From NCBI RefSeq assembly GCF_001039475.1, contig NZ_LELK01000009.1, positions 124,001 through 188,000 on the forward strand: a stretch of 64,000 bases of DNA, read 5' to 3'. The notes below the pieces were generated by a model. The model did not search any database and was not told the DNA's origin. It saw nothing but the letters and a program-made list of their open reading frames with translations. A program made the position numbers and the translations under genes. Every line of letters begins with the position of its first letter. The stretch's first letter is position 1. Source of the DNA: Guptibacillus hwajinpoensis (lineage in GTDB: Bacteria > Bacillota > Bacilli > Bacillales > Guptibacillaceae). Positions 468 to 56,768 of this stretch are shown piece by piece.

Positions 468-580
468 AACCTGATACTTAAGACACACGGACAATAGTAT
501 TAAAAAATGAAAACCCCCCACCCTTTCTCCTCCACTCCCTTACGAATATTGTTAACAAACGTACTTTGAGGAGGAGCAAT

Positions 581-775
581 ATGAAAATTGTTTATTACGA
601 AAAAGGTGAAATCCCAGTAATCGTAGGGGCATCTAACCTAAACTCAAGCCTAACAATCGAACAAATCAAATCCGAAGGCGAAAAAAAATCAAAAGAACTA
701 GCCCGACTACTAGGACGCGAAATCGGATTCCTAATGGACATGAACGGAAAACTAGACTCAACTTTAGGTGAATAA
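581..775 (+). CDS. Small conserved-looking protein, 64 aa, unknown function
   Basis: I do not recognise the family. The ATG at 581 is preceded at 571-576 by a GAGGAG ribosome site, whereas the in-frame TTG at 566 lies upstream of that site and cannot be the start. The product begins MKIVYYEKGEIPVIVG and its middle is rich in charged helix-forming residues; there is no signal peptide or membrane segment. Codon use is unusual: third positions are almost all A or C (CTA leucine, ATC isoleucine, CGA/CGC arginine), unlike the T/A-ending neighbours. A small gene at 56009 shows the same bias. The stop codon is only two bases from the first unit of a tandem repeat array. The position between lplJ and yhfI could correspond to a small yhz-type gene, but I cannot confirm this. 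Confidence 0.65.
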   Translation: MKIVYYEKGEIPVIVGASNLNSSLTIEQIKSEGEKKSKELARLLGREIGFLMDMNGKLDSTLGE

Positions 776-777
776 CG

Positions 778-1690
778 AAAAGCGGAAGTGAGCAGTTAGG
801 GTCGACAAACGCTGGAGGCATTTCATTTAAACACGGTTTTTGTGTTTGAATGAAATGCTGAAGCGATCGAGACCCTGCTCACTGCAGCTAGACCAGAAAA
901 GCGGAGACGAGCGTTCAGAAACGGAGATATTGGAGCTCTTGAATGGGAACACGCTTTTTGTGTTCCTATGAAAGAGTGAAATATCGCAGTTTCTGCGAGT
1001 CGCAGCTAGATCAGAAAAGCGGAAGTGAGCAGTTAGGGTCGACAAGCGCTGGAGGCATTTCATTTAAACACGGTTTTTGTGTTTGAATGAAATGCTGAAG
1101 GGATCGAGACCCTGCTCACTGCAGCTAGACCAGAAAAGCGGAGACGAGCGTTCAGAAACGGAGATATTGGAGCTCTTGAATGGGAACACGCTTTTTGTGT
1201 TCCTATGAAAGAGTGAAATATCGCAGTTTCTGCGAGTCGCAGCTAGATCAGAAAAGCGGAAGTGAGCAGTTAGGGTCGACAAGCGCTGGAGGCATTTCAT
1301 TTAAACACGGTTTTTGTGTTTGAATGAAATGCTGAAGGGATCGAGACCCTGCTCACTGCAGCTAGACCAGAAAAGCGGAGACGAGCGTTCAGAAACGGAG
1401 ATATTGGAGCTCTTGAATGGGAACACGCTTTTTGTGTTCCTATGAAAGAGTGAAATATCGCAGTTTCTGCGAGTCGCAGCTAGACCAGAAAAGCGGAAGA
1501 GCCCGTTTAGGCCCGACAAGCGCTGGAGCCTCTCAAAAAGAACACGCCCTTTGTGTTCATTTTGAGAGGTGAAGCGATCGAGAGGCTGCCCACTGCAGCT
1601 AGATCACGAAAAGCGGAAGTGGGCGTCTAGCCTCGACAAGCGCTGGAGCCCTATAAATTGAACACGTTCTTTGTGTTATAACCAATCTCA
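778..1690. repeat. Tandem array of ~118-bp double-hairpin modules (array 1)
   Basis: Every module opens with AAAAGCGG and closes with GCAGCTAGA(C/T)(C/A). Modules start at 778, 895, 1015, 1132, 1252, 1369, 1489 and 1609. The first six are three near-identical copies of a 237-bp two-module unit (types A and B); the seventh is a different type and the eighth is truncated near 1680. In type A, an outer stem pairs GTGAGCAG..GGGTC with GACCC.TGCTCAC, and an inner stem pairs GCATTTCATT..AAACAC with GTGTTTGAATGAAATGC around a GGTTTTT loop. Arm sequences differ between modules but stay complementary in most. Open frames across the array are an artefact of the 237-bp (multiple of three) period. The array lies between convergent genes, the plus-strand small gene and minus-strand yhfI. 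Confidence 0.9.
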
Positions 1691-1720
1691 AAAGGCCAGA
1701 AGTGATTTTCCCTTCTGGCC
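1690..1720 (-). terminator. Rho-independent terminator of yhfI
   Basis: GGCCAGAAG and CTTCTGGCC form a perfect 9-bp stem with a 9-nt loop. On the minus strand it is followed by TTTT, 11 bp beyond the yhfI stop codon. Confidence 0.75.
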
Positions 1721-1730
1721 TTAATCATGC

Positions 1731-2471
1731 TTATTTTTCCGAATCCCAAACAAGTCCAGTTGAAGCTAGTAATACTTCGCCTTCAAAAATACGTTTCGCA
1801 TCAATTTCTAACTCCATTACATTTCCGAAGTGTGGGAGATGGGTCAGCATCAGTGTTGAGACGTTCGCTTCTTTTGCAATGCTAGCTGCATCTGTGCTAT
1901 TCATATGTCCCATTGCAGATCCATCCATATCACTGTATAGGTTACATTCGGAAATTAGCAAATCAGCTCCGTTTGAAAAGGGTGCAAACTCTTTTTTATA
2001 ACTTGAATCAGCTGTAAATACCATTGAATGATTTCCATCAGTTACTCTCATGGCGTAACACTTTACTGGGTGATTTGTTTCAAGAAAAGTGATTGTAAAT
2101 GGTCCTAATTCAAGTTCATCTTCTTCTTTATAAGGTCTCGCTTCGGTATATGGCTGATGATTCAAACTTTGGAATTCTGCCTCATCGTAAGGATGTGCAT
2201 AAATAGGGAGAACCGGGAGCTCCGATCCTATTTTTGATTGAATAAGCCTTCCGTGATAAAGTACACCCGTATCTGCAATATGATCGGGATGATAGTGACT
2301 AATCAATACACTGTCGAGTTCTTCTACAGGAAGATGATACTGAAGTTGTGATAGCACTCCGCTGCCGCAGTCAATCAACAAATTGTATCCGTTATGCTGT
2401 ACAAGGTATCCTGCACTTGCTTCACCTGCTTTAGGATAACCTCCCCATGGACCAAGCACTGTTACTTTCAT
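1731..2471 (-). CDS. yhfI: YhfI-like metallo-beta-lactamase-fold hydrolase
   Basis: A 246-residue cytoplasmic protein of the metallo-beta-lactamase fold, closest in style to the RNase Z/arylsulfatase-like branch. The metal-binding HxHxDH motif is seen as HYHPDH at residues 59-64; further His/Asp ligands follow (NHP near 135, TADSS near 154, a late THLPHF). The substrate is not known for YhfI. Its ATG overlaps the stop codon of the upstream regulator gene (ATGA), so the two are likely translationally coupled. In B. subtilis yhfI neighbours lplJ as here, which supports the name. A terminator follows. The assignment to the fold is firm; any specific activity would be a guess. Confidence 0.85.
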   Translation of the reverse strand: MKVTVLGPWGGYPKAGEASAGYLVQHNGYNLLIDCGSGVLSQLQYHLPVEELDSVLISHYHPDHIADTGVLYHGRLIQSKIGSELPVLPIYAHPYDEAEFQSLNHQPYTEARPYKEEDELELGPFTITFLETNHPVKCYAMRVTDGNHSMVFTADSSYKKEFAPFSNGADLLISECNLYSDMDGSAMGHMNSTDAASIAKEANVSTLMLTHLPHFGNVMELEIDAKRIFEGEVLLASTGLVWDSEK

Positions 2472-56008: not shown

Positions 56009-56194
56009 ATGGAAAAGTACATCATCACCGCATTCGAAAAAAACGGAACCAACGTCCTAGATGAAAGCTTCGAAGCCCAGGACGACAAAGAAGCAAAAAA
56101 AATCGGCGAAGAACTACTCAAACAAAAAGGACTAGAAAAAAACTCCGCCCGCGTCGTATCATCCCAAGGCAAACTAGTTTTGTTTAAAAGATGA
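56009..56194 (+). CDS. YhzD-like small protein, 61 aa
   Basis: The product MEKYIITAFEKNGTNVLDES... ends with SSQGKLVLFKR. It looks like the small YhzD-type proteins found beside yhaQ in bacilli, though I cannot confirm this. The ATG has GGAGGGG upstream. Third positions are nearly all A or C (ATC, AAC, CTA, CGC), the same odd codon style as the 64-aa gene at 581 and unlike yhaQ. The last A of the TGA stop codon is the first base of the repeat array that follows, so the repeat begins exactly at the gene end. Confidence 0.65.
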   Translation: MEKYIITAFEKNGTNVLDESFEAQDDKEAKKIGEELLKQKGLEKNSARVVSSQGKLVLFKR

Positions 56195-56703
56195 AAAGCG
56201 GAAGCCTCCGTTTAGACACGGCAGGCACTGGAGCCTTTCAATATGAACACGTCCTTTGTGTTCAGGTTGAAAGGTGAAGTGACCGAGTGTCTGGAGGCTG
56301 CAGCTAGACACGAAAAGGGAAGACGAGCGTTTAGAAACGGAGATATTGGAGCTCTTGAATGGGAACACGTTCTTTGTGTTCAGGTCGGAAGGCGAAGCGA
56401 TCGAGGACCTGGGCTCTGCAGCTAGACATGAAAAGCGGAAGTGGGCGTTTAGCCTCGAAAAGCGCTGGAGCCTCCCCAAAAGAACACGTTCTTTGTGTTC
56501 ATTTGGGGAGGTGAAGCGATCGAGAGGCTGGCCACTGCAGCTAGACATGAAAAGCGGAAGCCTCCGTTTAGACACGGCAGGCACTGGAGCCTTTCAATAT
56601 GAACACGTTCTTTGTGTTCAGGTTGAAAGGTGAAGTGACCGAGTGTCTGGAGGCTGCAGCTAGACACGAAAAGCGAAGACGTGCGTTTAGAAACGGAGAT
56701 ATC
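56194..56703. repeat. Tandem array of ~119-bp double-hairpin modules (array 2)
   Basis: Modules start at 56194, 56313, 56431, 56550 and 56669 (the last truncated after about 35 bp). Modules 1 and 4 are almost identical, and module 5 restarts like module 2, so a three-module unit of 356 bp was duplicated. Module 3 pairs AGCCTCG with CGAG.GGCT (outer) and GCCTCCCCAAA..GAACAC with GTGTTC..TTTGGGGAGG (inner) around GTTCTTT. Module 2 is chimeric: its left arms match type B of array 1, while its right arms (GGTCGGAAGG, GGACCTGGGCTC) do not pair with them. The shared skeleton is AAAAGCGG...GCGCTGGAGCC...GAACACGTTCTTTGTGTTC...GAAGCGATCGAG...CTGCAGCTAGACA. Confidence 0.9.
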
Positions 56704-56736
56704 TTCACTTTTACAAAAAAGAATCCAACCAACCAA

Positions 56737-56768
56737 AGAACCGCCCGTCCAAATGGACGGGCGGTTCT
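56737..56768 (-). terminator. Terminator of dhaS
   Basis: AGAACCGCCCGTCC and GGACGGGCGGTTCT form a perfect 14-bp stem; on the minus strand TTGG follows, so the U-tract is poor but the stem is very strong. Confidence 0.8.

Follow-up and report, generated by a model that had tools for sequence, protein, structure and literature searches.

The window analysed here is a 64,000-nucleotide stretch of Guptibacillus hwajinpoensis DNA (assembly GCF_001039475.1, contig NZ_LELK01000009.1, positions 124,001 to 188,000; genome G000 below). By its transketolase gene the genome is Pseudalkalibacillus-like: six loci are 95-99% identical, those of P. hwajinpoensis and P. spartinae among them. Positions 777-1678 hold a tandem array (array A), in which TRF, nhmmer and cmsearch delimit seven full modules of ~118 nt and a truncated eighth; the original prediction of an array of ~118-bp modules with covarying arms stands, with its limits corrected from 778..1690. 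The full modules, each matched by nhmmer and cmsearch on the plus strand, start at 777, 896, 1014, 1133, 1251, 1370 and 1488, a spacing of 118-120 nt that leaves linkers of a few bases between neighbours. Module 1 (777..895) carries type 1 arms, and its 5′ end lies one base past the TAA of the upstream ORF. Type 2 arms are found in module 2 (896..1013), in module 4 (1133..1250), which is identical to module 2, and in module 6 (1370..1487), and they alternate with type 1 arms in module 3 (1014..1132), nearly identical to module 1, and module 5 (1251..1369). By reading, modules 1-6 thus make up three dimers of ~237 bp, nearly identical to one another and each with a type 1 and a type 2 module, and TRF reports a period of 237 with 94% matches. 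Module 7 (1488..1607) is of type 1 with other arms, and the eighth, plus-strand module (1608..1678) retains the 5′ part alone (model positions 1-71, nhmmer). A CRISPR array was rejected because the modules abut with linkers of a few bases and do not alternate as short repeats with unique spacers.

Directly 5′ of array A lies a small plus-strand ORF (578..775, TAA stop at 773-775) that is present in seven related loci among the loci listed and has no match in Pfam or NCBIfam. On the other side, an inverted repeat at 1692..1722, found by reading, looks like a bidirectional terminator between the array and a convergent minus-strand gene for a metallo-beta-lactamase-fold protein (1731..2471, from the ORF call and a domain match); this repeat is absent from the output of the terminator scan, which demands at least five T. 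The minus strand of 827-1519 also contains repeated 72-78-codon ORFs antisense to the array. We judged these ORFs of 72-78 aa to be probable by-products of the repeat, and for annotators, short ORFs running through such arrays are probably not genes in general.

A second array of the same kind (array B) lies in the same window, from 56193 to about 56664-56667, with four modules followed by a partial fifth. Its first bases complete the TGA stop of a YhzD-like small ORF (PF14120; 56009..56194, plus strand). On that strand, modules 1 (56193..56311) and 4 (56549..56667) were matched by nhmmer and cmsearch, and modules 2 (56312..56429) and 3 (56430..56548) by cmsearch; module 2 is a chimera of a type 2 5′ half and a type 1 3′ half in which pairing is broken. 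The 5′-partial fifth module (56668..56705, plus strand, end placed by eye) is followed by a terminator-like inverted repeat at 56737..56768, again found by reading. Badly pairing or chimeric modules were noted at 56312-56427 of the window and in loci L068, L272 and L274, and several of them are the last full module of their array.

The modules belong to a large family. At E ≤ 1e-4 the module model has 91 matches in G000, 100 in G010, 64 in G040, 137 in G126, about 124-125 in G199 and 13 in G124, with up to 150 candidates scored per genome. In an even sample of the order, with up to 18 candidates scored per genome, 149 of the 199 genomes have a match, as do 76 of the 98 genera. The family is thus common in the sampled order, yet no Rfam family reaches its gathering cut-off within the window, and a scan of 500-1800 at E values up to 10 returned matches far below the cut-offs of their families. 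At the sensitivity of single-module queries, one module of G000 found no match in plasmids, and one module of another genome found none in plasmids and phages. Titles and abstract beginnings, covering part of the literature, yielded no description of the family, nor of a repeat placed this close to gene ends. We regard the family as a dispersed, structured, non-autonomous repeat set apart by its breadth, its tandem growth and its position at gene 3′ ends; it could nevertheless turn out to be known, as one of bcr1-bcr18 or of the Bacillus halodurans families of PMC2267715.

Every module is predicted to fold into a single long bulged hairpin, with stacked helices separated by internal loops and, in types 1 and 2, the terminal loop ACGNNYTTTGT. 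This fold refutes the earlier proposal of two nested stem-loops per module, and the double hairpin was discarded. Three modules folded individually gave z scores of -7.9, -5.8 and -7.5, with none of 200 shuffled sequences equally stable; their reverse strands also fold (z of -9.4, -4.1 and -5.5) but are 8-13 kcal/mol less stable. Covariation was assessed in a MAFFT alignment (A1) of 75 modules (68 from G000 and 7 from other genomes), which omits one N-containing module (L068:3135-3239). Both sides change in 26 of the 33 pairs, and 94.1% of cells are paired, against 30.5-47.9% when the structure is slid along the alignment; none of 500 shuffled alignments reaches any of five measures. The unpaired stretches and the loop of the same alignment hold many invariant or nearly invariant columns. 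In a second alignment from other genomes (A3; 78 matches from 40 loci, outside the genus of G000 wherever a source is given, that is, not for L202-L211, L213 and L214), 32 of the 33 pairs change on both sides and 93.2% of cells are paired, counts that lean toward the structure because A3 was fitted to the model. The prediction that the arms vary together and keep their pairing is thus borne out above background in both alignments, and we conclude that the fold is maintained.

Mismatches at paired positions indicate which strand folds. In the MAFFT alignment, with pair 61-68 excluded, G.U outnumbers A.C by 107:23 cells and 76:23 distinct contexts, and by 68:22 cells and 58:22 contexts when the richest pair (43-86) is also left out. 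The corresponding ratios in A3 are 173:19 cells and 99:18 contexts, or 125:19 and 78:18 without the loop-closing pair. A.G and G.A together likewise exceed C.T and T.C in the MAFFT alignment (53:8). These asymmetries argue for a single folded strand and disfavor a cruciform, which needs both strands and predicts no such asymmetry. Probably, then, one strand is the folded one, although strand-biased mutation pressure could add to the G.U excess. Among the options originally offered for the fold, namely RNA, DNA cruciform or protein target, the maintained fold itself holds up, and the strand asymmetry does not favor a cruciform or a duplex-binding protein.

The position of the arrays relative to genes was surveyed in four genomes (27, 32, 29 and 24 arrays), using simple longest-ORF calls and counting arrays with the same flank once; G199 and G126 were represented by the best 30 matches of each genome, and G010 by sites among the matches listed. 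The upstream gene is co-oriented in 56 of the 112 arrays, and 38 of these 56 start within 6 nt of its stop codon, where uniform placement over the spacer minus the array would give 6.7. The 56 arrays are not independent, because some arrays of G000 and G010 have the same flanks and probably the same ancestral site. The mirror control, distances from array 3′ ends to the stop codons of convergent genes, gave no case of 6 nt or less among 78. An anti-oriented gene lies upstream in 56 cases, at varied distances from the array 5′ end, 3 of them within 6 nt; of 34 co-oriented downstream genes, 1 starts within 6 nt of the array 3′ end. The 18 co-oriented arrays that begin more than 6 nt from a called stop include arrays next to 23S rRNA genes and arrays 3′ of ORFs missed by the simple caller; array A itself was counted as anti-oriented, outside the 56, because its small ORF was missed.

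The same placement is seen at RNA genes. A module starts 3 bases after a tRNA-Met gene in L194; in L201 and L197 it starts 4 bases past the end that Rfam gives for 23S rRNA. In three genera (G010/G007, L197 of G014, and G095) the junction in the 23S-5S spacer lies 6-7 bases past CTTAACC although the spacers differ. In many cases, then, the 5′ end of the element coincides almost exactly with the 3′ end of a gene. If this reflects targeting, gene ends are recognized by an as yet unnamed process; if it reflects selection, the repeat is a widespread addition to RNA 3′ ends. Because they lie directly 3′ of genes, many copies are expected in mRNA 3′ ends and rRNA spacers, where they would likely have side effects on RNA stability.

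Occupied and empty sites can be compared within and between genomes. In a survey of 30 loci with 23S-5S spacers, 28 of which have a readable 23S end, G010, G007 and G095 each contain operons with and without a module in otherwise near-identical spacers. Of eight operons in G010, four carry one module type, three carry another type at the same junction and one is empty. The nine operons of G007 comprise three with a full module, three with a short stretch that the model does not match and three that are empty, and the nine loci of G095 (10 operons) comprise four full, three internally deleted and two empty. The cmsearch scores are 97-105 bits for full modules, 50-71 bits for the second type and 28-29 bits for the deleted copies; the empty 23S-5S spacers give no match. 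The module-free G000 spacer L399 matches the flanks in G010. The 23S-adjacent copies may represent a few insertions spread by gene conversion. In the G095 spacers L391, L406 and L417, the central hairpin is deleted and both module ends are kept.

At site B, the location of array B, six of 13 loci of the genus, our own included, are occupied and seven are empty. Occupied loci read GAT followed by GAAAAG and empty loci read GATAG, so the stop codon is TGA where the site is occupied and TAG where it is empty. Among seven loci related to site A, the location of array A, six hold between one and four full modules together with a partial module, and the empty locus continues from the stop through ~8 bases into a terminator-like repeat. 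The family therefore shows the discrete presence and absence at otherwise matching sites that mark a MITE-like mobile repeat in the wide sense, with the direction, gain versus loss, unpolarized; precise loss instead of insertion could also produce these patterns. A possible AC duplication was seen at one rRNA site and was not evident at the other sites read by eye.

Within a site, arrays change by recombination, as identical neighbors, identical dimers and chimeras show. The module make-up of site A differs between related species, and by reading, the orthologs L109 and L171 have the same three inner modules in reversed order (T2-A-B-C versus T3-C-B-A) and share the truncated last module. A 5′-partial module follows the array in 57 of 69 cases (27/27 in G000, 27/33 in G010 and 3/9 elsewhere), scored with a permissive motif, which 675 of 5400 random 24-mers contain as well. 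The last full modules of arrays in G000 and G010 have weaker folds (mean -49.1) than the first (mean -54.0; one-sided p 0.017) and the middle ones (p 0.004). The last is weaker than the first in 28 of 42 arrays, and weak modules are found at 9 of 42 last and 3 of 42 first positions, a difference short of significance (p 0.12). The weaker folds of last modules are in keeping with 3′-end decay. Strictly polar growth was set aside as a model, because the permuted site A orthologs leave growth from a single end unestablished. Some arrays (L062, L073, L083 and L297) have a second short repeat downstream, with units such as ATTAGCYAAA or TCCGCGATAT.

A maintained fold directly behind genes could serve the neighboring transcript. 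As a regulatory 3′-UTR or spacer RNA, the hairpin would block 3′-to-5′ exonucleases or provide an RNase III-type processing site and would be selected for its effect on the neighbor. This account draws on how often sense copies follow stop codons, with further cases after a tRNA gene and 23S rRNA, and on the strand asymmetry of the pairs. It also has precedents in the bcr repeats found in B. cereus mRNA and the effect of ERIC on upstream mRNA, as described in the available parts of PMC3446304 and PMC2229807. To weigh an effect on the upstream gene, which predicts better folding in sense arrays, we compared 27 stop-adjacent sense arrays (83 modules) with 23 antisense arrays (67 modules); winA, L083 and L293 were assigned manually to the sense arrays because a stop codon is visible in their 5′ flank. 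The antisense arrays keep their fold equally (median -56.9 versus -54.5 kcal/mol for sense arrays), and better folding of sense arrays is not supported (one-sided p 0.85). Weak folds (above -42 kcal/mol) account for 6 of 83 sense and 11 of 67 antisense modules, which leans in the direction predicted by a cis function but is not significant (Fisher p 0.12). Selection on cis-acting 3′-UTR folding was accordingly not retained, as the medians go against it, despite the opposite tendency in the proportion of weak modules. The anti-oriented upstream genes of 56 of the 112 arrays and the empty state of site B in 7 of 13 loci of the genus also speak against the regulatory account, which we consider doubtful though worth keeping in view. 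More generally, the idea that the fold exists for some local role of the array finds no support, given the similar fold strength of sense and antisense arrays and the differences between species in arrays at the same site.

Since fold strength does not clearly differ between sense and antisense arrays, what maintains the fold is probably the spread of the element itself, although a shared role in trans would likewise leave the two orientations equal and could apply here. The reading we favor, and to which we give about even chances, is that the array is a tandem build-up of a short non-autonomous mobile element that spreads as a folded single strand. Other elements also move in this form. The dispersed element, ~115-120 bp long, would propagate via folded RNA or folded single-stranded DNA with the sequence of the strand shown. 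Its recognition unit would be the long hairpin, whose arms vary yet stay complementary and whose internal-loop purines and terminal loop are conserved. Only copies that fold would spread, which would keep the fold. Insertion would often place the 5′ end of the element close to where a co-oriented gene ends, at its stop codon or at the 3′ terminus of a tRNA or 23S rRNA. Copies at an occupied site would then recombine and so increase in number, swap parts at the conserved loop, and degenerate at the 3′ end. We infer the origin of occupied sites by insertion, the role of the fold in mobility, the single-strand intermediate and the mode of array growth from the comparisons above.

The RAYT-like and Y1 loci inspected revealed no mobilizing enzyme for such an element. 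One candidate was a REP-associated tyrosine transposase (RAYT), which would make the module a REP-like element. RAYT-like proteins are encoded in this genome (NF047646, one of three above the cut-off; PF01797), and gene and element co-occur across genomes with an odds ratio of 3.5 (p 0.0003; cells of 104, 45, 20 and 30 genomes), a test that ignores kinship. Yet no modules were found in 30 RAYT loci, 15 Y1 loci (L215-L229) or 9 further loci, sets that overlap in genes, and 18 of 51 element-rich genomes, G199 among them, have no match in the RAYT alignment search at E ≤ 1e-10. The module of ~118 nt also exceeds the 20-40 bp given for REPs in the available part of PMC3733652. A RAYT partner is therefore unsupported, with no linked modules and with element-rich genomes that have no RAYT match, and we hold a RAYT-driven origin to be distinctly unlikely. 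On contig C7 of G000, RAYT-like genes lie at 322 kb and 533 kb (L418 and L420) with no modules near, and their counterparts in G010 are L422 and L423.

The favored reading, in which a mobile element spreads as a folded single strand, has a more far-reaching version that we think unlikely on present evidence: the family would be a new class of mobile element whose folded RNA or DNA strand is directed specifically at gene 3′ ends, whether protein, tRNA or rRNA, for example by copying onto or beside a transcript end or a ribosome-defined end. If this were true, much of the Bacillales would carry a so far unnamed family of gene-end elements.

Two further explanations account for paired changes in other ways. 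Long palindromes are prone to correction by template switching, and such quasipalindrome correction could make the arms of an otherwise neutral repeat covary without selection; the chimeras, which show recombination between modules, would be in keeping with this. Correction of this kind, however, predicts perfect, strand-blind pairs, and G.U exceeds A.C ~4.7-fold by cells and 3.3-fold by contexts. Internal-loop bases are often invariant or nearly so, and the same fold recurs with other arms in other genomes, which leaves neutral correction very improbable. Least probable of all, to the point of being hardly credible, are integron-like sites for module excision and insertion: attC sites do fold as single strands with variable complementary arms, and by reading, two related species have their site A modules in different orders, but no genes lie between the modules and the core motif of attC is not evident by eye at module ends.

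Comparison with known repeats places the family among structured intergenic elements. The BOX repeats of pneumococcus are modular and structured, with an inner part that varies in copy number; their modular build resembles that of our family, and the host group differs. REP/BIME repeats also build up in tandem. Like the module, they are high-copy palindromic intergenic repeats with RAYT-like genes in the same genome, but they differ in size from a family with no closely linked RAYT and with element-rich genomes that have no RAYT match. ERIC repeats prefer stop codons. In the available part of PMC2229807, the 127-bp ERIC/IRU of enterobacteria is transcribed into a long stem-loop, like the module, and its effect on the stability of upstream mRNA depends on orientation. 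That source also gives ERIC terminal inverted repeats, a target duplication and TA ends, whereas the module has no inverted ends: its commonest ends, GAAAAGCGG and AGCTGGAC or AGCTAGAC, are not mutual inverted repeats. Lacking terminal inverted repeats, the family was not assigned to the MITEs of ERIC, RUP or Correia type.

Closer hosts offer further parallels. The available part of PMC3446304 describes bcr1-bcr18 of the B. cereus group as dispersed, intergenic and structured repeats of Bacillaceae, partly in UTRs, like our family; compared by description, bcr1 differs in being titled specific to the B. cereus group. The same part places 84 of 165 and 62 of 155 bcr repeats within mRNA in two B. 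cereus strains, and bcr3-bearing transcripts reportedly differ in decay, with 3.6 and 2.5 in the table row. Bhal-1 and Bhal-2 of Bacillus halodurans, compared from their description in the available part of PMC2267715, are dispersed stem-loops of 74 and 76 bp in a related host. Bacillaceae-1 RNA (RF01690), a Bacillaceae RNA described by Weinberg et al. 2010 (PMC2864571, available in part), has a 67-position model with a gathering score of 35 that matches no module in the window and is absent from the hits in 500-1800. Among 17 module-bearing loci of other genomes, this RNA lies between two modules in L207 (1437-1502) and beside one module in L209 (1412-1479), the latter near 23S and 5S rRNA genes. 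Its loop CACGTCCTGTG resembles the module loop CACGNNCTTTGTG, a likeness of letters only. By eye, the 23S-5S spacer L399 contains a hairpin pair with a similar-looking CACGTCCTGTG.
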